Of a stretch of DNA of 64,000 bases, positions 23,354 through 61,693 are shown piece by piece. Below the pieces are notes generated by a model. That model did not search any database. It had not been told where the DNA came from and saw only the letters and a program-made list of their open reading frames with translations. Source of the stretch: a virus. Within the stretch, counting starts at the first letter, position 1. Each line of letters begins with the position of its first letter. The translations under genes were made by a program, and so were the position numbers. The DNA lies in IMG/VR virus record IMGVR_UViG_3300033149_003115, positions 49,898 through 113,897 of that record, one strand, 5' to 3'.

Positions 23354-25282
23354 TTGTCTAAGTCCGTAATGATAGGGGTGCCAGTGAAGAATGCAGCTAG
23401 GTGGTTACCAACATCACTGGACATAATAGAGAGGTTCACCTATCCCAAAGAGGATCTCAGGGTGGTCTTTGAGTACTCTAAGTCATCTGATGACACACTG
23501 AAGATCCTTAAGAAGTACCTGAAGAGGACCAGGATCCAGGCTGAGATATACCAGGAGCCCTATGATCCAGCTCTGAGGAAGCTTGGGATACAAATGGGAG
23601 CTGTCATCTACAATGACTTCCAGACCTTGCTGGATGAGGACTACTTCATGTTGTTTGATTGTGATATATGTGATGCTCCCAGGGATCTCATAGAGAGGCT
23701 GATGAGCATAGGTGAGGACATAGTGGCTCCATACCCCTGGAACGAGGGGTACTCTCACTTCTATGACACATGGATCTTCAGGATAGGGAACAAGAGGTTT
23801 CATCCCCTTGCTCCTCCAGGGATAGGGATGAGCACTCCAATAGAGGTTGATTCTGTTGGGACATGTTTCCTGTCTACCAGGGAGGCATTTAGGGATACTC
23901 CTATCCTGAACCCATACCCTAACCTCTCCTATTGTAACAATGCAAGGCGTAGAGGGTACAGGGTCCTGGCTGTGCCATATGTGGAGGTGTTCCATAGAGA
24001 CCTAGCTGGGATGGGGATAGTTCACAACCCCTTACCTCCTAAGATGGGAGGTTACCCAGCCAGTAGCTGGGCTACTGCTCTTGACCCTGTGATAGACCTG
24101 GATGGGAACATCGTCACACCTTACTCCTTTAATTTCAGTGACAAGGTGGAGATACAGAGGGTGGAGAGGGAGGTTGCACTCAGAGCCATCAAGCAGTACT
24201 TCACCACTCCATTCTGTAAGGAGAGAGGGAAGAGCCTGAGGTGGATGTATAATCTCTCACATTTTGGAGCTTTCTGGATGACACGTGATCCTCAGCTCCT
24301 GGATCTCATGTATAGGAACGAGATGTACCCCAGCTACATTGAAATAGAGCTCACTAACAAATGTCCATATAAGTGTGTGCACTGTGAAAGGACACACTGG
24401 GGTGATGACATAGAGCTTAGGAACATGACATGGGATGAGTTCCTGCTCATAATGAGGTCTTTCCCCAATCTCAAGCAATGCTCGTTCACTGGGATAGGAG
24501 ATCCATGGCTTAACCCAATATTCCTTGATGCTATCAAGTATGTGAAGGAGAGGGATGTGTACTTTGAGCAGTATGACACATTCCAGCACTGGAGCAGGGA
24601 CTCCATTGAAAAGATGGTGGAGTGGGGTGTGGAGAGGCTATTTGTGTCATTGGATGCAGCTACCAAAGAGACATATGAGAAGGTGAGGAAGGGACATAGC
24701 TGGGACAGGATGATAAGAAATGTTAAGCTGTTTGATGAGATAAAAAAAGAGCATGGATCTGTGTACCCTGAGATCAACTTTCATTTTGTGATTGATGCTC
24801 TGAACATTCATGAGGCACTGGACTGTGTGGACTTTGTAAAGTCCCTTGACATAGACAATGGGTTTATCCAGTACTCCAGGCTGTTGCACATGTATCCTGA
24901 GATAAATGATCTCTATGTTGATATCCCAGAGGATCTCTGTGATAAGATAAGGAGGAAAGGAAGGGACGAGGGTATCCCAATAGCCTGGAATGCTGATGTT
25001 AACCCCAACCTTCCTCCAATGTCAAAGTGTGCAGCTCTGTTCCAGCCCTTCTTCTTTGCTAATGGTGATGTCATAGTCTGTTGTGCTCAACATGAGGGTA
25101 ATAGGAGGAAATGGGAGCAGTCCATGAGGATGGGGAACATATTTGAGGCTAAGGACTTTAAGAAGATATGGTATGGGGAGAGATACAGAAGACTAAGAAG
25201 GGAGCTGAGAGAGGGGGTGTGCCCAGAGCCATGTGTTGGGTGTCCCATATACAAGCAACCCTCTGAGGTGAGGATGTGGTAA
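23354..25282 (+). CDS. GT-A glycosyltransferase fused to radical SAM/SPASM-like domain
   Basis: A 642-residue two-domain protein. Residues 1-~260 are a GT-A glycosyltransferase of the ANP1/Mnn9-like kind: GVPVKNAARWLPTSL at the start and FDCDICD (101-107) as the DxD metal site. Residues ~325-642 are a radical SAM domain with CPYKCVHC (C337, C341, C344), GIGDPWLNP in place of GGEP, a SLDAATKETYEKVRKG strand and a C-terminal cysteine set (VCCAQHEG; CPEPCVGC) for an auxiliary cluster. It may transfer a sugar and then modify it, or act on a glycopeptide. Start is TTG, one base after the previous stop. The fusion is open throughout, with no sign of a frame error. Confidence 0.88.
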   Translation: MSKSVMIGVPVKNAARWLPTSLDIIERFTYPKEDLRVVFEYSKSSDDTLKILKKYLKRTRIQAEIYQEPYDPALRKLGIQMGAVIYNDFQTLLDEDYFMLFDCDICDAPRDLIERLMSIGEDIVAPYPWNEGYSHFYDTWIFRIGNKRFHPLAPPGIGMSTPIEVDSVGTCFLSTREAFRDTPILNPYPNLSYCNNARRRGYRVLAVPYVEVFHRDLAGMGIVHNPLPPKMGGYPASSWATALDPVIDLDGNIVTPYSFNFSDKVEIQRVEREVALRAIKQYFTTPFCKERGKSLRWMYNLSHFGAFWMTRDPQLLDLMYRNEMYPSYIEIELTNKCPYKCVHCERTHWGDDIELRNMTWDEFLLIMRSFPNLKQCSFTGIGDPWLNPIFLDAIKYVKERDVYFEQYDTFQHWSRDSIEKMVEWGVERLFVSLDAATKETYEKVRKGHSWDRMIRNVKLFDEIKKEHGSVYPEINFHFVIDALNIHEALDCVDFVKSLDIDNGFIQYSRLLHMYPEINDLYVDIPEDLCDKIRRKGRDEGIPIAWNADVNPNLPPMSKCAALFQPFFFANGDVIVCCAQHEGNRRKWEQSMRMGNIFEAKDFKKIWYGERYRRLRRELREGVCPEPCVGCPIYKQPSEVRMW

Positions 25283-26346
25283 CATCTATGGAACTGATCC
25301 CGTCTCCAAGATATGCCCTGGTTGAGATAACCTGGAACTGTAACCTTAACTGTGTGATGTGTCCGAGGAACATATGTGGGTACAAGATGGGTACCAAGCC
25401 TCACATGTCCCTGGAGAGGTTCAGAGGAATCCTGGATAGTATCCCAACCTTGAGGAACATCAATATGGCTGGATGTGGGGAGCCATTATATCATCCTGAG
25501 TTCCATGAGATGGCTAGGGAGTGTGTGGATAGGGACATTGAGATAACTCTCACCAGTAATGGGACTCTGTTGTCAAGATCAAACATAGAGAAGATACCAA
25601 GAAGTGGAAAGGTCAGGATGCATGTCTCCATAGACTCTCCTGTTCCAGGGATATACAAGAAGTATAGAAGAGTTGATCTGAGCCTGGTGCTGAGGAACCT
25701 TGAGAGGCTGAAGAGGATAAGACCAGACATTGAACTTACCATTCAACCCTTGATAATGAGGGATACTTTGCCAGACATGAGGAAGATAATCCCTATAGCC
25801 AGGAGGTATGATGCCAGGCTATCCCCTATTTATCCAATAGCTTTTAGCAAGGATGATGAGGAGAGGCTACATCCCTTCTCCATGGAGGACTTTGATAAGA
25901 TGATGACCAATCTTCATTATCTCAGTGATCACTTTGGTGTCCCAATATATGAGAAGCCATCTTACCCAACCCCTAAGGACTGTGTGGAGCCATTTGTAGG
26001 ACCAGTGATCTCAGTGAAGGGAGAGATCTTTGGATGCTGCTATGCCTATGAGGCTAGGAGATACTCAGCTACCCCCAGGTACTGGGATGAATACTACAGG
26101 GGGAAACATATCAGAGTTCCTCAACATGACTACTTGTTTGGGAACATCTTCAAGGATGACTTTAAAGAGGTATGGAGAGGGGATGAGTACAGGGATCTCA
26201 GGAGGACACTGATGAATCTGAGGAAACACGAGATGACACATCCATATAACCTGGATCAATACATGATCCTGAGGGACCAGTCCAACATAAAGAAGAGGTT
26301 TGACTATTGCTCCATGTGTTTGTGGAGATGGAACCAAGCCTGCTAA
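25276..26346 (+). CDS. Radical SAM/SPASM-type protein
   Basis: A 356-residue protein with CNLNCVMC (the SAM/[4Fe-4S] site), GCGEPLYHPE (GGEP-like), VSIDSPVPGIYKKYRR, and a C-terminal auxiliary-cluster region with GEIFGCC and DYCSMC. The framework is like the radical SAM half of the preceding fusion and the following gene, so the three are paralogues. Such enzymes in glycan clusters dehydrogenate, epimerise or methylate sugars or lipid carriers. A GTG at 25276 overlaps the upstream stop; ATG 25288 is an alternative start. The substrate is not readable. Confidence 0.85.
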   Translation: MVTSMELIPSPRYALVEITWNCNLNCVMCPRNICGYKMGTKPHMSLERFRGILDSIPTLRNINMAGCGEPLYHPEFHEMARECVDRDIEITLTSNGTLLSRSNIEKIPRSGKVRMHVSIDSPVPGIYKKYRRVDLSLVLRNLERLKRIRPDIELTIQPLIMRDTLPDMRKIIPIARRYDARLSPIYPIAFSKDDEERLHPFSMEDFDKMMTNLHYLSDHFGVPIYEKPSYPTPKDCVEPFVGPVISVKGEIFGCCYAYEARRYSATPRYWDEYYRGKHIRVPQHDYLFGNIFKDDFKEVWRGDEYRDLRRTLMNLRKHEMTHPYNLDQYMILRDQSNIKKRFDYCSMCLWRWNQAC

Positions 26347-26349
26347 GAT

Positions 26350-27423
26350 GTGATGATGATGTATAACCCTTATCCCTACCCAACTGACTATATCCTGGAG
26401 ACCAACACTAATTGTAACCTGAGATGTGTGTGTTGTGCCAGGAGGTTCACTGACATGACACATGAGCCAATGTCCCTGAGAGATGTCAAGAGGATAGTCA
26501 AGAAGCTACCATGGTCCAGGATATTCAGGATAGGGGTCCAGGGTGAGCCTCTTATCTACCCTGAGAACTTTGACATAATGGAGTACATGAGGAAGCTACA
26601 CAAGATGTGTACCATCACCACCAATGGGACTATGTTGACAGATGACAAGATAGTGAAATCCATACCCTCCAATGTCAAGGTGATGTACATATCTGTGGAT
26701 GCTGGGTCACCTGAGGTGTATAAGGAGTACAGAGGATGGAGGTTTGATAAGTGGAAGGAGGGAGTGATCAACCTCAGGAGGCTCAGACCAGAGATACAAG
26801 TCCAGATCAACTACCTGTTGTTCAAGGGTAACCTGACAGATGTCCCAAAGATGCTGGAGTTCTGCTCAGAGCATGGGCTGAGCTTGTCCAGTACGTTCCC
26901 TGTCATCTTCATGGAGGAGATATCCAGACAGCATGATGCCTTCTGGTTGGAGAACTTACCTAATATAATACACCATAACCTGAAATATGCTAAGTTTCTG
27001 GGGGTTCCCTACTTGTGCTCTACTGGTAGGCTGAGGTGGAGGAGATGTGTGATCCCCTGGGTACAACCCTTGATCGGGATACAGGGAGATGTGTATGTTG
27101 ACTTCTTCATTTATCAGCTTAGGAACTACGATAGGAATGGTCCTGTCATCTGGAGGGAGTACTTCAGGGACAAGTATAAGGAGGTACCTCAGCATGAGTA
27201 TATTATGGGTAACATTCTGGAGGATGATTGGAGAACCATCTGGAACAATAGCTACACTCCCTTCCTCCTCAAGCTGGACTCTCTGAACAACATGAAGATA
27301 AGCTCTAAGATGTTCTCCAAGATGTATGAGGAGTACCCAGTGAAATATGATCAGGACAACCCAAGATGTTCTGGCTGGGAGTACTGTAAGATATGTGGGA
27401 GAAGATGGGGGTACAGCTACTAG
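26350..27423 (+). CDS. Radical SAM protein, auxiliary site degenerate
   Basis: A 357-residue paralogue of the preceding gene: CNLRCVCC holds the three cluster cysteines, VQGEPLIYPE the GGEP-like motif, and SVDAGSPEVYKEYRG the following strand. Where its neighbour has GEIFGCC it reads GDVYVDF, so two auxiliary-cluster cysteines are missing, though CSGWEYCKIC near the C-terminus remains. It may bind only one cluster or act as a partner of its neighbour. It starts three bases after the upstream stop. Confidence 0.83.
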   Translation: MMMMYNPYPYPTDYILETNTNCNLRCVCCARRFTDMTHEPMSLRDVKRIVKKLPWSRIFRIGVQGEPLIYPENFDIMEYMRKLHKMCTITTNGTMLTDDKIVKSIPSNVKVMYISVDAGSPEVYKEYRGWRFDKWKEGVINLRRLRPEIQVQINYLLFKGNLTDVPKMLEFCSEHGLSLSSTFPVIFMEEISRQHDAFWLENLPNIIHHNLKYAKFLGVPYLCSTGRLRWRRCVIPWVQPLIGIQGDVYVDFFIYQLRNYDRNGPVIWREYFRDKYKEVPQHEYIMGNILEDDWRTIWNNSYTPFLLKLDSLNNMKISSKMFSKMYEEYPVKYDQDNPRCSGWEYCKICGRRWGYSY

Positions 27424-36005: not shown

Positions 36006-37070
36006 TCAAGCAGCTGGATACTCGTAGTCAGAAGACTGAGCATTCACAACTGCACCAACTGCCAGTGAGTCAGCTACTCCGAAGTTACGCTCAGCCCAGA
36101 AGTGGTACCAGACTGAGTCATAGTCAGGCTTGTCCTCTCTAACCCCACTTAGATCTCTCTTACGGACATCGTACCCTAGTCTCTTACTATCAACCACAAA
36201 GGCATTCCCCTGTGGAGCTCTGGAGCTAGTGACAACCTTCATACCAAAGATCTTCCCTATTTCAGCATTCATGAGAGCCTCATTTGAGCCATAAGCTGAC
36301 ACATCCACGAACTTGACATTAGGATCAAAGAGCAGGGAAGCTAGGTCAGCATCATTTATGATCAACACATCAGGCTTTCTATGCTTAGCCACAAGCTTAG
36401 ATCTGACCCTTAATATGTCCTTAGCAGACAGGGATCCAGCAGAGCTAGCACCAACCCACAATGTGGTTGAGCTAAGATAGTCTGAGTAGACTGATGTGAT
36501 AGTAGCTGCCGTCACAGACCCAGTGAGTGTGACCTTACCAGTATCATACTCAACAGAGCTGATAGTGGCACTGGATGGAACATCAGTTATCTTGATGACT
36601 GGAGTGTTGGGGAATGTCCCAAGTGACCCAGTGGCTACAGTACATGTCTGAGTAGTCAAGTCAAGCATCACGGTCTGAGCCACATCATCAAGCACCTCAG
36701 CCCATTCCAGACCTGCTTCATAGATGTGATCCTTGATCACATCTCTCATAGCCTGCTCCAGTGCTTCATTTGTGAACTCTAACCTGATCCCAGACTTGGT
36801 GACAGTCACAGTCACAGCATCATACGTGAAGCTAGAAGAAGCAATAGTGGCTCCAGGTGATGCTCCCCATGTGACAGATATCCCAGTGCCTTTCTTAGGA
36901 AACTGGATCTGTCTTGGAGTGTTAGGTCTTTTAAGATCCTCATTAGGCTTAAAGAGCTGAGCAAAGACCACTTCTCCCCTAGCAACCTCTTCTATGGTGT
37001 CAGCTATAGCCTTACCAGTGATAGCTGCTACATCAGCAGTTCCAAGTGCTAGTTCCTCTATAGATTTCAT
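36006..37070 (-). CDS. Major capsid protein, HK97 fold (copy 1)
   Basis: A 354-residue HK97-type capsid protein. It starts with ELALGTADVAAITGKAIADTIEEVARGEVVF, has the long spine-like helix region EALEQAMRDVIKDHIYEAGLEWAEVLDDVAQTV, a beta insertion (TPVIKITDVPSSATISS), KPDVLIINDADLASLL (A-domain) and the end YDSVWYHFWAERNFGVAD typical of MCP C-termini. A TATA box on its strand and AGAGGAGGATTAAG before the ATG suggest that this is the main, strongly expressed capsid gene. A second, clearly homologous gene lies at 37706-38782. Confidence 0.92.
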   Translation of the reverse strand: MKSIEELALGTADVAAITGKAIADTIEEVARGEVVFAQLFKPNEDLKRPNTPRQIQFPKKGTGISVTWGASPGATIASSSFTYDAVTVTVTKSGIRLEFTNEALEQAMRDVIKDHIYEAGLEWAEVLDDVAQTVMLDLTTQTCTVATGSLGTFPNTPVIKITDVPSSATISSVEYDTGKVTLTGSVTAATITSVYSDYLSSTTLWVGASSAGSLSAKDILRVRSKLVAKHRKPDVLIINDADLASLLFDPNVKFVDVSAYGSNEALMNAEIGKIFGMKVVTSSRAPQGNAFVVDSKRLGYDVRKRDLSGVREDKPDYDSVWYHFWAERNFGVADSLAVGAVVNAQSSDYEYPAA

Positions 37071-37705: not shown

Positions 37706-38782
37706 CTATAGGCTTGCAGCTCCATATTCTCCCTGCTTGGCATTCACTATCACTCCTATGGCATTATCATCAGATACAGCCATCTCCCTCTCAGCCCAGA
37801 AGTGATAGAATACACTATCATAGTCAGGCTTGATCTCCTCATTTCCATCAAGGTCCCTCTTGATCACATCATACCCCAGTCTACTGGAGTCCACTAGTAT
37901 CCCAACTCCCTCAGGGACATTGGCAGAGCTCACTACTTTGAGATCCACTATCTGTCCCAGCTCTCCATTGAGCTTGTCATCCTTACCAGCATATAGCCTC
38001 TCATGTACAAACAAGGTCTGAGTGTCTGGATCGTATAGCAAGGTGGTGACCTCTGATGGATGTACCAGCAACACATCAGGGTGAATAGAGTTACTGATCA
38101 GGGTACTCCTAAGGTTCAAGACATCCCATATCTTGAGGTATTGCTTGGTGTTAGCATCCAGGTAAAACCCATTGCTCCTACATCTATCTGAATATAAGAA
38201 AGTCAGAGTACCAGATGATATAGATGATGTGAGCAACACCTTACCACTATAATAATCAACAGAGCTAACAGTGGCTCCTGATGGCACAGATGATATGCTA
38301 ATAACAGGGGTCAAGGTGGTACTACCCAGAGTACCCCCAGACCATGATGTTATGCTCCCAGTCTTTAGATCCAGGGCTATGGTCTGAGCCCGCTTATCAA
38401 GCTCATCAGCATATTTCTTCCCTACCATGTACACAGCATCTTTCAATAGATCCCTGGCTGTTGACTCTAACACCTCCTTGGGTATTTCTAGTCTAACACC
38501 AAACTTAGCAACATCAACAGTCAGAGCATCATATGAGAATGAGGATGGGGGCAATGTGGTGTTCTCCCCAACATCAGATGACACTACAATATTGTCCTCA
38601 AGCTTGGGGATCTCCAGTCTCCTGCCTGGACTCCTCAAGAAGTCCTTGTTCTCTCTAAAGAGCTGAGTAAAGACTACTTCATTCCTAGCAACATCATCTA
38701 TAGTCTTAGCTATCACCTTTGGAGTAATAGCCTGGACATCAGCTGTCCCCAGTGCCAGCTCCACTATCTCCTTACTATTCAT
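37706..38782 (-). CDS. Capsid protein, HK97 fold (copy 2, paralogue)
   Basis: A 358-residue paralogue of the main capsid protein along its whole length: ELALGTADVQAITPKVIAKTI at the start, the same spine helix and beta insertion (TPVISISSVPSGATVSS), and the end YDSVFYHFWAEREMAVSD. It lies at the front of the operon directly after the scaffold genes. A minor vertex protein (as T4 gp24 is to gp23) or a co-assembling second hexamer protein are the simplest roles. Both copies have an intact full-length frame, so neither is a pseudogene. Confidence 0.9.
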   Translation of the reverse strand: MNSKEIVELALGTADVQAITPKVIAKTIDDVARNEVVFTQLFRENKDFLRSPGRRLEIPKLEDNIVVSSDVGENTTLPPSSFSYDALTVDVAKFGVRLEIPKEVLESTARDLLKDAVYMVGKKYADELDKRAQTIALDLKTGSITSWSGGTLGSTTLTPVISISSVPSGATVSSVDYYSGKVLLTSSISSGTLTFLYSDRCRSNGFYLDANTKQYLKIWDVLNLRSTLISNSIHPDVLLVHPSEVTTLLYDPDTQTLFVHERLYAGKDDKLNGELGQIVDLKVVSSANVPEGVGILVDSSRLGYDVIKRDLDGNEEIKPDYDSVFYHFWAEREMAVSDDNAIGVIVNAKQGEYGAASL

Positions 38783-48658: not shown

Positions 48659-50242
48659 ATGTCATACGATAAGGATATAGGAATAGGTATTAAGATTGAA
48701 GTAGACCCTACCACATTTGAGCAGACTAAGGCTAGATTAACTGAGATAGCTACTGTGCTTGAAAAGATAAGCTCAGTCTCCTCAAAGAAGCTAACCCTAG
48801 CTCTTGATGAGGTATCATCATCAGCTAAGAAGACAGCTCAAGCATCTGCTCAGGCTGGTAGACAAATACAGGAGGGGTTGTCTGTCAATGGTACTCCTTT
48901 GTCATCCCTCATAAACCAGTATTCAAACCTGAACACTGTGGTGTCCGACTCTGATGCAGTGTTTGAGGATCTATGGGATGTCCTGGAGAGGGTAAGAAGT
49001 AAGCAGATGACTGCTAAGAAAGGGATGATGGAGTTCAATGATGTCCTTGGAGCATCCACTCCAGTCGTGAGGATGCTGGTGAAGGGATGGGAAAACGTAG
49101 AGGCTATGGCTAAGCAGATGGGGATCAGTGCAGATGACCTAGCTAAGAGGATGCTAAAAGGAGAGATAGCATACTCCAGACAAAGAATAGGATCAATATA
49201 CCTTAACAGAGCTCTAGCTCAACAAGCTCAGGTCTTCAAGTCTGTTAGACTAGGGATGGGAGCTTATGGAACAGCTCTACAGTCACTGGGTAGGACAATG
49301 TTCTGGGTAGGACTAGGATCAATGTTCATAATGATGTCATGGGCTAGGATGCAAAGGAGAGCTAAGCAAGTCACTGCGTCTGCCTTTAGCTTAAAGAGAG
49401 CCTATGTGGATCTGTATCAGGCTCAGTCTAACCTGAAAGAGACCATGCTTGAATATGGGAAAACATCTAAAGAAGCTGTCTTAGCTCAGCTGAGACTGGA
49501 AGAGGCTCAGATGAGGGTTACCCAAGCTGAGGACAATGTGAGATCAGCTACTGAGCAGAATATTTATGCAACTGCTATGTGGATATTTGGAATGGTTCCC
49601 ACATACATCAGAGCTTCATTTGAGATGACCAGTTCTCTAGCTATGCTGACAGCAGCTAAATATCAGGTAGCAGGAGCCTCTATGGTTGAAGCTGCGGGTC
49701 AGAACGCAGCTGCTGGAGCAATCACTATTCATATCCCATTAATAGGAGGTGTCACACTAGCCTACTGGCAATGGGCACTAGCAATAGGAGCTGTGACATT
49801 TGGTCTTAACATATTAATAGGGTTATTAACACAGCAATACGCCATGAGCCAGGCTGAGGCTAGGATAAAGAAGGTGAGAGAGGAAACAGAGAAGTGGGAG
49901 GATGTATTAACTGGACATTCATTAGTGGACTCTTTAGAAGCTACCAGAAATAAGATGATGGAAACCAATCTAAGTACCAAGGAGCTTTCATATTCATTAT
50001 CAAGATTACCTCTAAGATCTCATAGTCCTCTAGAAATTAAAACCACCAGTGGATGGGTAGAAATGAGTAATCTAAATGCTGATCTCAAAGGGTTAGGAGC
50101 AGTGTCTAGTACTAGAAGTGTTAACATTAGTGTCAATGGACCCTGGTATATCAGAGAAGAAGCTGATATTACCAAAATAGCAAAGAAGATCAAGCAGATG
50201 GAAATGAGAGGTATAAGGAATAGTACTGGAGGCAAGATATAA
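48659..50242 (+). CDS. Tape measure protein
   Basis: A 527-residue protein: N-terminal coiled-coil half (QTKARLTEIATVLEKIS, SSAKKTAQASAQAGRQ), a hydrophobic central part with several predicted membrane-like helices (MFWVGLGSMFIMMSWA; MWIFGMVPTYIRASF; WALAIGAVTFGLNILIGLL), and a C-terminal RSHSPLEI / VNISVNGPWYIREEADITKIAKKI signature shared by many tape measures. Its length would set a short tail, roughly 80 nm by the usual 1.5 Angstrom per residue rule. The hydrophobic middle is the part that enters the host membrane. Confidence 0.85.
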   Translation: MSYDKDIGIGIKIEVDPTTFEQTKARLTEIATVLEKISSVSSKKLTLALDEVSSSAKKTAQASAQAGRQIQEGLSVNGTPLSSLINQYSNLNTVVSDSDAVFEDLWDVLERVRSKQMTAKKGMMEFNDVLGASTPVVRMLVKGWENVEAMAKQMGISADDLAKRMLKGEIAYSRQRIGSIYLNRALAQQAQVFKSVRLGMGAYGTALQSLGRTMFWVGLGSMFIMMSWARMQRRAKQVTASAFSLKRAYVDLYQAQSNLKETMLEYGKTSKEAVLAQLRLEEAQMRVTQAEDNVRSATEQNIYATAMWIFGMVPTYIRASFEMTSSLAMLTAAKYQVAGASMVEAAGQNAAAGAITIHIPLIGGVTLAYWQWALAIGAVTFGLNILIGLLTQQYAMSQAEARIKKVREETEKWEDVLTGHSLVDSLEATRNKMMETNLSTKELSYSLSRLPLRSHSPLEIKTTSGWVEMSNLNADLKGLGAVSSTRSVNISVNGPWYIREEADITKIAKKIKQMEMRGIRNSTGGKI

Positions 50243-53017: not shown

Positions 53018-53115
53018 TGATGACTATGGGAGAATTAAATGAATTGAAGAAATCGAATCCATATTTCTGGTATTTGGAATGGAGGGATGCTCTTGTCAAT
53101 AGCAATACCAGCTAG
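53017..53115 (+). CDS. Short frame after the hub gene (remnant or micro-gene)
   Basis: A 32-residue frame (MGELNELKKSNPYFWYLEWRD) starting at the hub's stop and running into the next gene. The composition is protein-like but there is no clear ribosome binding site. It may be the leftover end of the original hub C-terminus after domain replacement, or a very small gene. Confidence 0.25.
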   Translation: MMTMGELNELKKSNPYFWYLEWRDALVNSNTS

Positions 53116-53734
53116 AGTGATCACTAAGATAGGAACACTATTCAAGCGTAGAGTGGAGAACATAGCTATCTATCTACTTACTAAGATAAACATCCTCATG
53201 GTCTACTTGATCACTCTAAAGGATCTTTGTAATATCATCCTCATCCTACCTTTCATCATCAATGTGAATGCGTATATCAAGCTCTTACTAAGAGAGATAG
53301 AGCACCTGATGATCTCTGAGCTATCGAGGATATGGTTAAGGTTTAGTAAGAGCATCTCCATCATGGACAAGATCATTCTACACTTCTACGCATCAAGCTC
53401 AATCATCACTGATAAGATCTTAAACCTTAAGATCAAGATGCCAGAGTCTCTAGAAGTACTGGATCTCCTCAAGATCACTTTAGATCTAGGTAAGAACATA
53501 TCAATAAATGAGATCCTGAACTACTTCCTAGTATGGTCAGAGAGTGTAAATATCTCAAGACATATCAAGCTAAGCCTAAGAGGTCTAGTGGACTCTCTTG
53601 GAATATCAGATGATCTAGGATATAATGTTAAATTATCTAAAGACATAACAATAGAGGACAGTATGAGCTACACTCTACAAGGAGAGTATATAAGGTTCGA
53701 TATTGGTAGATTTGATATAGGGAGGATAGGATAA
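53087..53734 (+). CDS. Tail protein built of short SxxxD beta-repeats
   Basis: A 215-residue protein. From about residue 90 it consists of units of 16-20 residues of the form S-hydrophobic-x-hydrophobic-x-D-x-hydrophobic (SISIMDKIILHF, SSIITDKILNLKI, SLEVLDLLKITLDL, NISINEILNYFL, SVNISRHIKLSL, SLGISDDLGYNV, DITIEDSMSYTL). Such repeats build beta-solenoid or fibrous stalks in tail fibres. The first 90 residues look like degenerate units. It ends with a doubled RFDIGR. The same repeat returns in the protein at 56172. Likely a tail fibre stalk. Confidence 0.6.
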   Translation: MLLSIAIPARVITKIGTLFKRRVENIAIYLLTKINILMVYLITLKDLCNIILILPFIINVNAYIKLLLREIEHLMISELSRIWLRFSKSISIMDKIILHFYASSSIITDKILNLKIKMPESLEVLDLLKITLDLGKNISINEILNYFLVWSESVNISRHIKLSLRGLVDSLGISDDLGYNVKLSKDITIEDSMSYTLQGEYIRFDIGRFDIGRIG

Positions 53735-53735
53735 A

Positions 53736-56159
53736 GTGCCAATTACTCACTCCAGTGTAGCTGTGTCTGGAGAGACACTGTGGGCTAATGCATGGAATGC
53801 TGATCACAAGATAACAGATGTTATACCTACTAGTGTTAATGTTTATGATCTGGGTAGCACTAGCTATGAGTTTAGAAATGCTTACTTAGGTGGGACTTTA
53901 TTCCTTGGTACTAACTCAGATGTAAATTTGTATCGTTCAGGTACGGATATCTTGAAAACGGATGATTTATTAATCTTAGGAGATGGTACTAATAAAGATC
54001 TACTAGTATTTAACACCGAGAGATCCTGGAGATTCACAACCAAAGACACTGGAGCTAGCACTAAATTAATTCTTAAGACTGATGTGAATGCTAAAGCTTT
54101 CCAGATTTGCAGAAACGATGATGAATCAATACTTTCGATTTATGCTAACACTCTTGATCCTGAAGTTACAGTCAATGGAAGCTTAATTGTAAATGATCAG
54201 CTTCAGCTCCCTGTACAAGGATCAAGCGGTGGTATACTGATAGGAGGAGATGTTCAGTTATACCGTTATGGTGCTAATGTTTTAAGAACACCAGATCAAA
54301 TAGATGTTGAGACAAAGATATGGTGTGGTGGACCTGTTGATGCTGAGAGATTGTGGATAGGTGGAACTGAAATAATAGATAGCTCAAGGATACTGAAGAA
54401 TATTGCTTCTATTGCTCAGAGTCTTCTTCCAGATGCGGATAACACGAGAGATTTAGGAAGTTCAAGCTATAGGTGGAGAGACTTAAGACTCTCTGGGGAT
54501 GCCTATATCGGTGGTGATGCTCTTATAAGTGGTGTTCTGGACAATCCATATATCAATGCTTATTCAAGTGATTATGGACTCGTTCTTTACTTACCATTTG
54601 AAGAGGGAACTGGAACTTCGGTCTATGACGAATCTCCTCATGGGAATGATGGAACTGTTTATGGTACTCTTTCTGGAACGGTTTACGGGGCATCTTGGGT
54701 TGATGGAAAGTATGACAAGGCTTTAGGCTTTGATGGTGATAACGACTATGTGGAACTGTCAGAACCTCTAACTATTTTTGATAAATCTTTCACAGTTTCC
54801 ATGTGGGTTTGGGCAGATTCAACGATTTCTGGAAGATGGGGGATTCTTCTTGGTGATTATAATCTTGGAGGAATAGATGTTAATTTTGAAATAGTCGAGA
54901 ATGGCAAAATACGATTTTATTGGGCTGGAAATCCAGATCTCAGAGGCACAAAGACTCTGGAAACGGAAAAATGGTATCTCATAACTTTTGTCAGGGATAA
55001 AGACGCTGAAACAGTCAAGGGTTATGTTAATGATGAGCTTGACATTAACTATAGTGGGGCAATATCTGATAAGACTGCAACCGTTCCACATAGAATTGGC
55101 AGAGATGCAAGAACGGGTGATACTGCTTTCGGACCAGGTATTATCGATGATGTTCGTATTTATAACCGAGCCTTAACTGAAGAGGAAATCCAGCAACTAT
55201 ATCAAGGCAAGGACATCGGTGGTGGTCGTGTTCTCTGCTTACGCTTCGATGAAGGAGAAGGTACTACGGTTTACAGCGATAACTGGTGTGATGGGAAGTA
55301 TGGGAAGGCGTTGAGCTTCGACGGCGAAGACGATTTCGCTCTTATAGACGACTCACCATCCTTGCATATTGCCGATGGAACAATAATATTTTGGGTGAAT
55401 AAACTTGCTAATCACGAAGTTACTGCTGACTTCCTGAATAAAAACAGGGGGGGACGCCATGAAGGTGACTTACATATTGGATTAAGAGCTGACGAAAACA
55501 TCGAGATTTGGCTAGACGATGGTGTAGACGAGCATTATGTTACTTCAGGTGTCCTTGGAGGAGGCTGGTATCACGTAGCTTTCACATTCGGTTCTGGCGG
55601 AATGAAATTGTATATTAACAGCGAACTTGTAGACACCAACGCTTACACGGGAGGAATTGAAAATAATACCTGGAAAATAAGCTTGGGAGCAGGAACAGAG
55701 ATAGGGACGGGACTCTGTAAGGTTGAGGGTTTAGATGAGGTTCGCATCTACAACCGAGCTCTCACACTAGAAGAGATAAGAGCTCTATACTTAGCTGGTA
55801 AATCAAGATATTCCAGAAGCATAGTTGTATCAGATAAGTTTAGAATATTTAGCACTTCTCTATCAGAGCTACTAAGGTTAACAACCACAAATCTAAACCT
55901 CAGTGTGTCACTCTTGCCATTATCAGATAGTGTTTATGACATTGGATCATCGAGCTATAAATGGAAAAACCTGTACATCACTAACACTATTAACTTTGGT
56001 ACAGACACCAACCTATATAGGAAGTCAGCTGATCTCTTAGCAACAGATGATGACTTTGATTTCAATCAACATCAAGCTAAGCAGTTTGTGATAGAGAACA
56101 GAACCAGTGATCCTAGCTCTCCAGTTGAGGGACAGCTATGGATCAGGACAGACCTATAG
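53736..56159 (+). CDS. Tail fibre with two laminin-G-like domains
   Basis: An 807-residue fibre starting at GTG two bases after the previous stop. Fibre-shaft motifs of the type D(L/I)GS(S/T)SY+W+(N/D)L occur three times (near residues 38, 239 and 742). Between them lie two LamG/concanavalin-like domains: ~285-490 (YLPFEEGTGTSVYDESPHGNDG ... VRIYNRALTEEEIQQLY) and ~498-690 (LRFDEGEGTTVY ... VRIYNRALTLEEIRALY). Such domains bind glycans. Their DNA uses CGT, CGC and CGA arginine codons, which the rest of the late region avoids, so the cassette was probably acquired recently. Confidence 0.85.
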   Translation: MPITHSSVAVSGETLWANAWNADHKITDVIPTSVNVYDLGSTSYEFRNAYLGGTLFLGTNSDVNLYRSGTDILKTDDLLILGDGTNKDLLVFNTERSWRFTTKDTGASTKLILKTDVNAKAFQICRNDDESILSIYANTLDPEVTVNGSLIVNDQLQLPVQGSSGGILIGGDVQLYRYGANVLRTPDQIDVETKIWCGGPVDAERLWIGGTEIIDSSRILKNIASIAQSLLPDADNTRDLGSSSYRWRDLRLSGDAYIGGDALISGVLDNPYINAYSSDYGLVLYLPFEEGTGTSVYDESPHGNDGTVYGTLSGTVYGASWVDGKYDKALGFDGDNDYVELSEPLTIFDKSFTVSMWVWADSTISGRWGILLGDYNLGGIDVNFEIVENGKIRFYWAGNPDLRGTKTLETEKWYLITFVRDKDAETVKGYVNDELDINYSGAISDKTATVPHRIGRDARTGDTAFGPGIIDDVRIYNRALTEEEIQQLYQGKDIGGGRVLCLRFDEGEGTTVYSDNWCDGKYGKALSFDGEDDFALIDDSPSLHIADGTIIFWVNKLANHEVTADFLNKNRGGRHEGDLHIGLRADENIEIWLDDGVDEHYVTSGVLGGGWYHVAFTFGSGGMKLYINSELVDTNAYTGGIENNTWKISLGAGTEIGTGLCKVEGLDEVRIYNRALTLEEIRALYLAGKSRYSRSIVVSDKFRIFSTSLSELLRLTTTNLNLSVSLLPLSDSVYDIGSSSYKWKNLYITNTINFGTDTNLYRKSADLLATDDDFDFNQHQAKQFVIENRTSDPSSPVEGQLWIRTDL

Positions 56160-56171
56160 GAGATATGAGAC

Positions 56172-56936
56172 ATGTCAGAGACTATTAGTCTAAGAGTACG
56201 GGTCTACCATGCTGGTAAGATCAGGACACTGAGGGAGAGTACCGCTAGTCCTCTAAGATTAAACATAGGAGGAGAGACTTACTATCTGGAGCTAGTGGAA
56301 CCAACCAATAGGTTTTCCAGTCCTGTCAGAGTGTATCACGGAGGACAGGTGTGGGCTATAGCCTATGGAGATATTATAGTACTTGTAGAATCCCTTGTCA
56401 TAGACGAGTTCTTGAAGTTAGTGTTAAGGTTAATTAAGAGCATTACGGTCCTAGAAAAGCTAAAGATAGACACAATAATCAAAGAGATCATTAGTGTAAC
56501 TAGACATCTTAAAATGAGGTTAAGCTTACCGAATGAGATCATGTCGATCATGGATATTCTCAAGCTCAGACTAAGGATGAGCAAAGCAATTGATATAGCA
56601 GAGGACTGGCTAGCTGAGAAGACATGTGCTACCTGCTATAGCTGTGATACATGTCAAATCTGTGATTCATGTGAGACCTGTGTAACCTGTGAAACCTCTG
56701 AAGTATGTCCATCCTGTGAGATCTGTAACACCTGTGATGTTTGTGACACCTGTCAAAGCTGCATTGGTTGTCAACACTGTGTGGTCTGTTATGGAAGCTG
56801 CTACACATCTTGTCAGAGCTGTTACTCGTGTATGGCTTGTGAGACTTGTGATGTATGTGATTCATGTCAGAGCTGTAATGTGTGTGACGCATGTGATGTA
56901 TGTGAGGTCTGTTATGCTGACTTCTACATTTCATAG
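56172..56936 (+). CDS. Tail protein with C-terminal Cys-x-x repeat domain
   Basis: A 254-residue protein in three parts. Residues 1-66: strand-rich head with two RVYHxG motifs (RVRVYHAGK, PVRVYHGGQVWAIAYG) seen in tail-associated proteins. Residues 70-150: the same SxxxD short repeats as the protein at 53087. Residues 152-247: 31 cysteines, one every third residue, broken only by a Ser at 176 and two four-residue steps at 206-214. The intervening residues are mostly D, E, Q, N, S, T, V. It is followed by a pure Cys-x-x protein and a radical SAM maturase. It would be anchored in the tail by its N-terminal parts, displaying a modified or metal-loaded cysteine rod. Confidence 0.8.
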   Translation: MSETISLRVRVYHAGKIRTLRESTASPLRLNIGGETYYLELVEPTNRFSSPVRVYHGGQVWAIAYGDIIVLVESLVIDEFLKLVLRLIKSITVLEKLKIDTIIKEIISVTRHLKMRLSLPNEIMSIMDILKLRLRMSKAIDIAEDWLAEKTCATCYSCDTCQICDSCETCVTCETSEVCPSCEICNTCDVCDTCQSCIGCQHCVVCYGSCYTSCQSCYSCMACETCDVCDSCQSCNVCDACDVCEVCYADFYIS

Positions 56937-57380
56937 AGGAGTGATGAAAGGATGACAATTAGCTGTACCAATTGTGACACGTGCCAGAGCTGTGTTGTGT
57001 GTGAGGTTTGCTATTCATGTGATGTCTGTGATGCTTGCAATACATGTGTGACCTGTCAGACTTGTGATATCTGTGAGCTATGTGATGTCTGTGATTCATG
57101 CAACACTTGTGAATTTTGTCATTCCTGTGACTGGTGTGTAGTTTGTCAAGCTTGTAATTCTTGCCAGTCGTGTGTGACATGTGAGAAGTGTGATTCATGT
57201 TTTAGCTGCTATAGTTGTGAGAACTGTGACTCGTGTGAACTATGCGTGACCTGTCAGCTGGTGATATAGGGAGTGAGTTATAAACATGTCAAGATGTATA
57301 GAGTGTGAGGTATGTGTAATGACACAAAACCCTAGATGTTCTAGCTGTTACACCTGTCAGAAGTGTGTGACGTGTCAGAT
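56622..57380 (+). repeat. DNA encoding period-3 cysteine repeats (three genes)
   Basis: Across three consecutive genes the DNA repeats a nine-base theme, TGT-NNN-NNN, with frequent TGTGATGTCTGTGA-like units. The third bases vary, so the cysteine pattern is kept by selection on protein and not simply by recent slippage. Confidence 0.75.
56952..57269 (+). CDS. Pure Cys-x-x repeat protein (33 cysteines)
   Basis: A 105-residue protein with cysteine at every third position from residue 5 to 101, 33 in a row without one break. The x-x pairs are polar or small (DT, QS, EV, DS, NT, EK). There is no signal peptide. The only parts outside the repeat are MTIS and the final QLVI. Strict period 3 would line all thiols on one face of an extended (polyproline-II or 3-10-like) chain. 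It stands between another Cys-x-x tail protein and a radical SAM/SPASM enzyme, so it is the best candidate for that enzyme's substrate. GAGTGATGAAAGG precedes the ATG. Confidence 0.85.
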   Translation: MTISCTNCDTCQSCVVCEVCYSCDVCDACNTCVTCQTCDICELCDVCDSCNTCEFCHSCDWCVVCQACNSCQSCVTCEKCDSCFSCYSCENCDSCELCVTCQLVI

Positions 57381-58566
57381 CATGAAGGGGAAAGGAGATG
57401 GAGGAGGACTAACCAGGGGTCCTTATCCAATTACTGGGATAACATTGTTCCCAACAGATCACTGTAACTTTAGATGTACCTACTGTTTCACTTATGAGTA
57501 TGAGAGAGAGTTCACTGGTAGGATGAACTGGGATACAGCTAAACAGTCCATAGACTTCCTTCTAAAGAACTCTGGTAACAACAGAATGGTGAGCATACAC
57601 TTCTTTGGTGGAGAGCCATTATTAGAATATGATCTAATAAAGAGAATGGTAAAGTATGGAGATAGAGAAGCTAAGAAATACAACAAGGAAATACGATGGG
57701 GTATGACTTCAAACTGCTCATTGATAACAAGGGATATTAACAGCTTTCTTAGAAAGCATAAGTTCAAGATCCTAGCTTCAATCGATGGATGGAGAGAATC
57801 TCACAATACTCACAGAGTAGATAAAGAGGGTAAAGGAACCTTTGATAGAGTTATCAGAGGAATAAAGATGTTGAAAGAATGGAGAACACCAGAGCTGAGA
57901 TGGACTCTTACTCCCCAGACATTGAAGTATGTGTCTAGTGACATTAGAAAGCTTGTAGACATGGGCTTCTCATCATTTGCACTGGAGCCAGTGTATGAGA
58001 TAGAATGGACTGAGGATGACTATGATGAGTATGAGAGGATGTTGAGAGATGTTTCAGATTTTCTCCTTGAACTAGCTGCTAAGAACAAGACCATTCATGT
58101 TAAGCCAATAGTGGATGGTCTACTAGTCTTTCAGCTAAATACCAGGATGAGAGACAGATGTGGACTTGCTAAGGGATCAGTTGGAGTGTCTCCATCTGGT
58201 GAGATATTCAGATGTCATAGGTTTGTAGGACAGTATGCTCACAAGATAGGGGATGTCTGGAAAGGGATAGATGTAGATAAGGCAGCTGTGATCAATAGCT
58301 CATGGGACATTAACAAAGTACATCCAGTCGGTGATGAGGATCAGGAGAAATGTAAGAACTGTAGAGCCAGAGTTATATGTACTGGAGGATGTCTGGCAGT
58401 GAACTATGATCTCTACAAGGATATCTTCACTGTTCCAGAGGTGTACTGTAAGCTGAATGAGATCAAGGTTAAAGTAGCTACAGACTTCTATTTGGAAATG
58501 ATTAATAAGTATCCCCTGTTATTAAATAGATATATGAAGCTAAGAAGGAGAAGGAGCAATAAGTAG
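57286..58566 (+). CDS. Radical SAM/SPASM peptide maturase with Cys-x-x leader
   Basis: A 426-residue enzyme. Residues 4-30 hold eight cysteines in Cys-x-x spacing (C4, 7, 10, 18, 21, 24, 27, 30), copying the neighbouring substrates. The radical SAM site is CNFRCTYC (C60, C64, C67), followed by FFGGEPLLEY and SIDGWRESHN. The SPASM domain is complete: C-x12-G-x4-C (CGLAKG ... GEIFRC), then CKNCRARVICTGGC, which is exactly C-x2-C-x5-C-x3-C, and a last Cys in VYCKL. This is the layout of sactipeptide/ranthipeptide and anSME-like maturases with two auxiliary [4Fe-4S] clusters. It should modify the Cys-x-x proteins, perhaps by thioether cross-links. Confidence 0.9.
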   Translation: MSRCIECEVCVMTQNPRCSSCYTCQKCVTCQIMKGKGDGGGLTRGPYPITGITLFPTDHCNFRCTYCFTYEYEREFTGRMNWDTAKQSIDFLLKNSGNNRMVSIHFFGGEPLLEYDLIKRMVKYGDREAKKYNKEIRWGMTSNCSLITRDINSFLRKHKFKILASIDGWRESHNTHRVDKEGKGTFDRVIRGIKMLKEWRTPELRWTLTPQTLKYVSSDIRKLVDMGFSSFALEPVYEIEWTEDDYDEYERMLRDVSDFLLELAAKNKTIHVKPIVDGLLVFQLNTRMRDRCGLAKGSVGVSPSGEIFRCHRFVGQYAHKIGDVWKGIDVDKAAVINSSWDINKVHPVGDEDQEKCKNCRARVICTGGCLAVNYDLYKDIFTVPEVYCKLNEIKVKVATDFYLEMINKYPLLLNRYMKLRRRRSNK

Positions 58567-60343: not shown

Positions 60344-61693
60344 ATGGATCCAGAGACAAGGATGCAGCTACTTATTTGGTACAAGTCTCCCACTAAGTTC
60401 TATGAGGATTTATATGGTCATCCTCCTTTTCCTTACCAGGCAAGAGTGCTAAAGTTTATACCTAAGCTCAGAAGACTAATGATCCTCTCGGCTTCAGGCA
60501 CTGGAAAGTCGGAGCTATTAGCTGGGATAGGACTTTGGTTATGTATTCCATATTCTTATTATATTAAAAGATCTTATGACGTTATTATACTAGCTGGATC
60601 TCAAGATCAAGCTAGGAGCTTGTATAACTACACTTCAGAGATACTCCCAGAGCATCCAGTCTTATCCAAGCTAGTAGATGGAGAGGTACAAGTGACTCAA
60701 TGTAGATTCAAAACTGGTTCTATGATCAGAGCTTTACCAACATCACTAAAGTCAGTACAGGGTAAACACACCCCATGTGTTATCATAGATGAAGCTGTCT
60801 TAGCTGGTGATTTCTTTATTAAAGATGCTTATCGTATAGTCGGAGGGTTCCCAGATTCTAGGATCATACTAAGTGGTACTCCCATGGAATATAGTAGCTT
60901 ATTTGTAGAGATGTGGGATGATCTAAAGAACTACCCAGATTACTTCTCTAAGGACAAACCTGATCCCTTGGACTGGGCTAGGTTCTCATGGTCTGTAATG
61001 GAGTGTCCCAGGATAACAAAGGAGGAAGTAGAGGAGGCTAAGAGAAGACTCTCAGATGAGCAGTTCTCTATATTCTGGTTAGGTAAACCCTATCCTGTTA
61101 CTAACACTGTAGTTCCAGTTGAACTGATCAGGAGACAATCGATAGGTTATTCTAAGTTCCAATACGACCCTGCTCATAAAGTAGGTAAGATCATATTTGG
61201 AATAGACTGGGGTATGACAGACAGATCAGTCTTAGTGATAGTCCAGATATTGGATGATCAATACAGAGTGTTGGAAATAGATGAGTGGAGAGGACAGAGA
61301 TACGAGAATGTTCATGACTGGATCAAGGCTTATGCTATTAAATACAAGCCAGATCACATCTTTGTAGATCTTAACCCCAAGGGAGAATCCTCAAGATGTG
61401 TTGATAGGTTGATGCCACTAGGGTTTGATGTTAAGGCTATTAACATGGGTCAAGAGAGAGGATCCTTACAGGTTAGGATGAAGTACCTGTTTGAACATTC
61501 TAAGATAATAATACCTCAGGATGATGAGTTTCAACCTCTGTTAAATGAGATCAAGAGGTACACATGGGATCAAATAAAGAATGATGACAGGGTGACAGCT
61601 CTGATGTTATCCCTAAAGAACATTAACGAAGAGGAATACCAGGATCAGTTCTACTACAAGATATCATCATTTAAGAGAAAACGATTATGGTAG
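60344..61693 (+). CDS. terL: Terminase large subunit
   Basis: A 449-residue packaging motor. The ATPase domain has Walker A SASGTGKS (49-56), Walker B VIIDEA (146-151) and a coupling motif SGTP (177-180). The RNase H-like nuclease begins at FGIDWGMTD with Asp288 and includes IFVDLNPKGES and a C-terminal acidic cluster (NDDRVTALMLS). It cuts concatemeric DNA and pumps it through the portal. The length is normal for the family. It ends the plus-strand late operon; a hairpin overlaps its stop codon. Confidence 0.95.
   Translation: MDPETRMQLLIWYKSPTKFYEDLYGHPPFPYQARVLKFIPKLRRLMILSASGTGKSELLAGIGLWLCIPYSYYIKRSYDVIILAGSQDQARSLYNYTSEILPEHPVLSKLVDGEVQVTQCRFKTGSMIRALPTSLKSVQGKHTPCVIIDEAVLAGDFFIKDAYRIVGGFPDSRIILSGTPMEYSSLFVEMWDDLKNYPDYFSKDKPDPLDWARFSWSVMECPRITKEEVEEAKRRLSDEQFSIFWLGKPYPVTNTVVPVELIRRQSIGYSKFQYDPAHKVGKIIFGIDWGMTDRSVLVIVQILDDQYRVLEIDEWRGQRYENVHDWIKAYAIKYKPDHIFVDLNPKGESSRCVDRLMPLGFDVKAINMGQERGSLQVRMKYLFEHSKIIIPQDDEFQPLLNEIKRYTWDQIKNDDRVTALMLSLKNINEEEYQDQFYYKISSFKRKRLW

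Follow-up and report, generated by a model that had tools for sequence, protein, structure and literature searches.

Small secreted peptides and a handful of cellular proteins are known to be cross-linked by enzymes that form thioethers. QhpD, the bacterial quinohemoprotein amine dehydrogenase maturase (TIGR03906), is a SPASM enzyme that places Cys-to-Asp/Glu thioethers into a structural protein subunit, a non-repetitive substrate. The SCIFF maturase CteB (TIGR03974), also a thioether former, acts on a short clostridial peptide with six Cys, and the CXXX-repeat maturase (TIGR04115) and CefB (NF038107, Cys every fifth residue) are SPASM enzymes beside strictly periodic-Cys cellular peptides with a spacing of 4 or 5. 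PapB, which matures PapA (freyrasin; NF047865), links Cys to Asp or Glu in CX3D/E and accepts CXnD with n of 0-6 (PMC9413430). Here, in viruses of archaea as well as of bacteria, the same kind of enzyme is tied to proteins that appear to be structural parts of the tail and contain up to ~90 Cys. The initial annotation of the locus knew of no viral system of this kind, and our literature search, confined to open-licence PMC papers, likewise found no published description of one.

The locus lies in a window of 64,000 nucleotides (positions 49,898 to 113,897 of IMG/VR record IMGVR_UViG_3300033149_003115) and comprises three tightly packed ORFs on the same strand at 56172-58566 (56172-56936, 56952-57269 and 57286-58566). 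The gaps are 12, 15 and 16 bases, with 0 bases to the next gene, and each of the three start codons is preceded by a purine-rich SD-like sequence. The initial annotation had described three adjacent genes for a protein with a Cys-x-x domain, a repeat protein and a radical SAM/SPASM enzyme, and all three were recovered as ORFs. The features of the locus and its surroundings are as follows.

53736..56159, + strand: tail-fibre-like protein with laminin-G-type domains, directly upstream (PF13385, E 4.9e-47; PHROG virion structural, tail fiber)
56172..56936, + strand: tail-module protein, 254 aa (ORF; 31 Cys, 30 in CxxC register)
56625..56912, + strand: Cys-x-x array of the 254-aa protein, residues ~152-247 (period-3 Cys matches)
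56952..57269, + strand: 105-aa protein, almost only Cys-x-x (33/33 Cys in register)
57286..58566, + strand: predicted radical SAM/SPASM maturase, 426 aa (PF04055, NF047865, AlphaFold)
57295..57375, + strand: N-terminal Cys-x-x stretch of the maturase, Cys 4-30 (sequence; comparable stretches in relatives)
57463..57486, + strand: radical SAM [4Fe-4S] motif CNFRCTYC, residues 60-67 (Cys kept in alignment A1)
58159..58449, + strand: SPASM domain, C292, C310, C356, C359, C365, C369 and C388 (invariant in A1)
60344..61693, + strand: terminase large subunit (PF17289; phrog_2, E 2.6e-24)

The terminase large subunit places the locus in the context of a tailed virus and its structural module. The informational genes, as read from the ORFs (B-family DNA polymerase, RadA-like and ERCC4-like), look archaeal, and this tailed virus appears to infect archaea. 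No usable match came from searches for sequences closely related to the window enzyme, the terminase or the capsid-like protein.

The 254-aa protein has a Cys-free N-terminal part of ~150 aa, a small beta domain followed by amphipathic helices, and a C-terminal array. Its N-terminal part is weakly similar to an upstream 215-aa ORF (53087-53734, E 2e-4) and matched no other family, and its designation as a tail protein rests on context, namely its place in the tail module and its relatives. The 105-aa protein matched no Pfam or NCBIfam family. The initial annotation took it for nothing but repeat; all 33 Cys are indeed in register, although the repeat makes up almost, not quite, the whole protein. 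Periodicity of this kind is far beyond chance, since a six-Cys period-3 pattern had 43 matches in the window, all within the first two cassette genes, and 0 in 100 shuffles. No further period-3 Cys run was found in the remainder of the 113.9-kb record, and Cys content in the rest of the window is 1.4%.

By its sequence, the 426-aa protein bears both marks of radical SAM/SPASM enzymes. The PF04055 Radical_SAM match is strong (E 1.3e-17, 64.9 bits against a cut-off of 29.5), and the SPASM ligand pattern C292-x12-G-x4-C310, C356-x2-C-x5-C-x3-C369 and C388 is complete, as the initial annotation had it. Across the ten homologues of alignment A1 all seven SPASM Cys are invariant, as are C64 and C67 of the radical SAM motif, with C60 nearly so. 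A feature absent from the initial annotation is an N-terminal Cys-x-x stretch of eight Cys (Cys 4, 7, 10, 18, 21, 24, 27 and 30). The ~48 residues ahead of the core are Cys-rich and unstructured in the AlphaFold model (pTM 0.78), in which the Cys-x-x stretch has low confidence; from the length and the model, there seems to be no room for an RRE domain, which in PapB is N-terminal and binds a leader peptide.

The best NCBIfam model, by a wide margin, is that of the PapB ranthipeptide maturase (NF047865), at 280.6 bits against a cut-off of 340; SCIFF and further peptide maturases come next. Eight cassette enzymes from other records likewise have PapB as their highest-scoring model (187-230 bits). 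Scores lie below the cut-off as well for TIGR03974 SCIFF (211.8 against 425), and far below it for the TIGR04115 CXXX-repeat maturase (132.8 against 350), NF038107 CefB (112.8 against 600) and TIGR03906 QhpD (203 against 453), so that no curated maturase family cut-off in NCBIfam is reached. The nearest solved structure is CteB (5wgg/5why, SCIFF-type), the top PDB match of the model with a TM of 0.70. Because PapB is the top model and CteB the nearest structure, the enzyme is by similarity of the thioether-forming SPASM kind, yet it belongs to no named family. The link to sactipeptides and ranthipeptides drawn in the initial annotation therefore stands as regards the kind of enzyme and fails as regards family membership, for want of any cut-off reached.

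Each known system resembles the locus in part. The likeness to PapB and PapA extends to the SPASM Cys and to periodic Cys in the candidate substrates, with the acids at i+4 as a possible further parallel, whereas the window enzyme is viral and carries a Cys-x-x stretch, apparently instead of an RRE, and its candidate substrates are tail-module proteins in which no cleavable leader was seen. The CXXX-repeat and CefB systems share the SPASM enzyme beside strictly periodic Cys; here, in contrast, the period is 3, with viral relatives at 4 and 2. Unlike the SCIFF peptide, the neighbours in the window have 31 and 33 Cys at period 3. QhpD provides the likeness of a SPASM enzyme with a protein-subunit substrate.

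Recurrence of the cassette was assessed from both sides. An array scan with the pattern C-[DN]-T-C-Q-x-CxxCxxC, covering viral contigs and 84,980 prokaryote genomes, repeatedly returned the cassette in viruses, Korarchaeota (L206/L292, Methanodesulfokora), Brockarchaeota (L276) and bacterial genomes (L278, L279 and L283), in agreement with the co-occurrence across genomes proposed in the initial annotation; L252, L256, L258, L260/L265, L271 and L272 are further loci that carry it. Cys-pattern matches were filtered by overlapping frames; several of the first ones fell on the strand opposite a coding repeat, collagen-like or other, or in a different frame from it, and were discarded as artefacts, while the window array genes have no overlapping coding repeat in the opposite or another frame. 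The common order is a tail protein with a C-terminal array, then an array-only protein, then the maturase. Many records in this survey are fragments, and in L202, L270 and L291 the contig or locus stops at or within the arrays. An exception is L288, a Cys-x-x pair with no adjacent enzyme. A strong match was found in only 1 of the 29 genomes searched in the Korarchaeota group, as expected of a mobile element.

The modified product is quite probably a virion part, judging from gene order and from the tail-family matches of relatives. The cassettes are positioned after tail genes, three array-bearing tail-module proteins have in common a module of the functionally unannotated phrog_8917, and in L256 a tail-fibre protein (phrog_7389) adjoins the arrays. 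That the products are instead secreted or host-directed RiPPs, such as a toxin, a signal or a factor in superinfection exclusion, we regard as highly improbable: the 105-aa protein is small, free-standing and RiPP-precursor-like, and similar enzymes occur with Cys-rich proteins at chromosomal loci of archaea, but most cassettes have one array as the C-terminal end of a tail-module protein of 800-1700 aa, their position within the tail operon does not vary, and among the inspected cassettes we recognised no gene for a protease or exporter.

Searching from the enzyme gave the same picture. When viral sequences were scanned with nothing but the enzyme profile, 80 loci were returned. As a check on ascertainment, we reran this reverse search with a profile limited to the core, and again with just the core of the window enzyme as query. 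With the core profile, 15 loci scored >384 and all of them have Cys-x-x array neighbours, nearly all directly upstream, the remaining loci scoring <300. Nine of these 15 come from contigs that had figured earlier in the analysis, and six (L296, L297, L298, L301, L302 and L303) from contigs new to it. The initial annotation had set beforehand, as its refutation, a maturase mostly standing without Cys-x-x neighbours in relatives; the closest relatives present the opposite. With the window core alone as query, array loci are imperfectly separated, L299 (CxxxC type) ranking sixth; a few loci of other spacing are mixed into this ranking because lower-tier enzymes adjoin CxxxC or CxC tail-module proteins, the next score tiers including neighbours with CxxxC repeats (L299, L304, L306, L313, L335 and L357) and CxC repeats (L315 and L319). 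Across 78 loci, Cys-rich genes occupy 35/76 (46%) of positions -1 and 21/76 (28%) of positions -2, compared with 15/555 (2.7%) of positions at least four genes from the enzyme. In an 89-row enzyme tree, a quick build with some long branches in which we rely only on strongly supported groups, the window enzyme belongs to a clade of 18 rows (SH-aLRT 99), every one with Cys-x-x neighbours, and the Cys-spacing type of the neighbours changes 27 times on the tree against 51.3 times with shuffled labels.

The two-way linkage of enzyme and array is thus strongly supported as general in viruses, and the Cys spacing of the neighbours follows the enzyme phylogeny. The system is broader than the initial annotation held, spanning several Cys spacings and both archaeal and bacterial viruses. 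Judged by the linkage, the enzyme very probably modifies the arrays. On balance, we favour the wider proposal that archaeal and bacterial tailed viruses cross-link periodic-Cys tail domains with their own large, unnamed class of SPASM maturases, each clade tuned to a spacing of every second, third or fourth residue.

Viral Cys-x-x proteins with no radical SAM gene in the contig or record are common, and for this reason the repeat alone is no sign of maturation; only the pair is. These proteins (L021, L071, L092, L150 and others) share Cys at every third residue with the window arrays and differ from them in being small and stand-alone; nearly all their records lack a radical SAM gene, Gln hardly ever follows Cys, and D/N often precede it. 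One enzyme-free class has D/N before Cys, the opposite register to the window arrays; another, collected with a pattern that favours it, has D/N after Cys. In phages L021 (4051-9690), L071, L099, L009 and L092, as many as four small Cys-x-x proteins are encoded; their N-termini are of the type MKITKR.NRWYDENNNSW, they match no Pfam family, and the record contains no radical SAM gene.

Enzyme-free proteins of this sort, like the extreme Cys density itself, could be taken to mean that the arrays are metal- or Fe-S-binding rods or disulfide networks, with the enzyme acting on another substrate or aiding cluster assembly. We consider this very unlikely, given the two-way linkage, the co-variation of the enzyme with Cys spacing, and the placing of D/E/N/Q after Cys and not before it in enzyme-linked arrays, a difference in composition from one large enzyme-free class. 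To our knowledge, moreover, no SPASM enzyme is a cluster loader.

Sequence comparison indicates strong purifying selection on the array Cys, and the arrays are real, Cys-constrained proteins. Between L202 and L270, 84/84 Cys are kept despite 10 TGT/TGC switches (omega 0.086), and between the array-only proteins of L296 and L298 30/30 Cys are kept over 18 codon switches, with other residues 53% identical; no omega is given for the latter pair because synonymous change is saturated. An AlphaFold model of the array protein was uninformative (pLDDT 53). Many of the arrays in L202, L258, L294 and L301 have a super-repeat of ~15, 18 or 21 residues, and the triplet register survives most breaks.

In the window arrays, the residue that follows Cys is D/E in 46% of cases and the one that precedes it in 0%, and 47% of array Cys have D/E at i+4 compared with 0% at i+2 or i+5, although the i+4 placement follows automatically from period 3 with acids after Cys and is not proof of chemistry. 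As these i+4 acids match the Cys-x3-Asp/Glu motifs of PapB, Cys-to-acid thioethers are our leading guess for the chemistry.

A separate gut phage and prophage lineage (L067, L139-L145, L221 and L224), whose hosts are probably Firmicutes, sets a limit to such a rule. There the tail-fibre gene is followed by genes for a maturase, two proteins of C-Q-x repeats and a protein with a Hint domain, and by another radical SAM gene; the enzymes of this lineage group outside the window clade, are the most distant among the cassette enzymes, and appear to represent an independent use of the same idea. The top gut-phage match (L122), next to a secD-like gene, was left uncounted as a probable chromosomal SCIFF maturase. 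Gln follows Cys in 89% of the gut repeats and acids are absent, so a Cys-Asp/Glu rule cannot be universal, and CX3D/E alone was dropped as a definition of the substrate. In this lineage the Hint-domain gene (L140 7986-8396, and the same place in L142 and L145; PF13403, E 9.8e-6, just under the cut-off) sits between the Cys-repeat genes and the second radical SAM gene, and its presence in a tail operon suggests further self-processing there.

The acid-free gut repeats also bear on whether the enzyme alters the arrays in some other way, by C-alpha (sactionine), Cys-Thr/Ser or C-C links, epimerisation or another Cys alteration. Relatives in the SPASM superfamily span many chemistries, and T/S are the commonest residues ahead of Cys in the arrays; nevertheless, the closest models are the Cys-using thioether formers PapB, SCIFF and QhpD, CteB is the structure nearest to the enzyme, and it is the Cys that are conserved; such alternatives seem unlikely to us. 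A thioether network is probably the product.

We therefore read the three genes as a virus-borne maturation cassette for a tail part, in which the radical SAM/SPASM enzyme would act on the arrays of both proteins, the tail-module one and the one that is almost only Cys-x-x. Most likely it would remove a hydrogen and form thioethers between the sulfur of each Cys and a carbon in the side chain of a residue close by; as in PapB, the candidate partner directly follows the next Cys (Cys-x3-Asp/Glu, and also Gln/Asn). Many such links could make a flexible, very Cys-rich stretch rigid and proof against reduction and proteases, as a rod or tip in which the tail protein ends, and the Cys-x-x stretch of the maturase itself probably docks on the arrays, replacing the RRE used by PapB. 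Taken as a whole, modification of the arrays of a tail part, most likely by PapB-like thioethers, is the account we find probable. The points against it are that no family cut-off is reached, that the enzyme seems to have no room for an RRE, that the gut repeats are of the Gln type, that enzyme-free Cys-x-x proteins exist and that L288 lacks an adjacent enzyme. The recurrence of the gene set in many unrelated viruses suggests that viruses chemically stitch tail parts, the chemistry being predicted. If confirmed, this chemistry would reveal a new route by which virions become rigid and withstand heat, reduction or proteases. It would also open up a large, unexplored set of enzymes that cross-link long repeats, and supply a function for a group of viral radical SAM genes now listed in libraries without one.

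Several further features were observed in the window and in the surveyed loci. Tandem related ORFs at 36006-37070 and 37706-38782 resemble major capsid protein paralogues, the first having no match in the phage collection, and two more radical SAM-like genes, at 25276-27423, lie inside a glycosyltransferase-/epimerase-like block, with no Cys repeats nearby. Archaeal genomes L385-L388 and L392 hold chromosomal-looking loci with a related radical SAM enzyme and a Cys-rich protein (31-53 Cys, CxxxC or mixed), and several of them also carry a small helical protein ending in a EVVMEILIELDLV-like sequence; a similar helix is fused to a Cys-x-x stretch in L276. The maturase genes of L278 (3-1694) and L299 (4840-7221) contain LAGLIDADG inteins, inserted directly after the radical SAM Cys motif.
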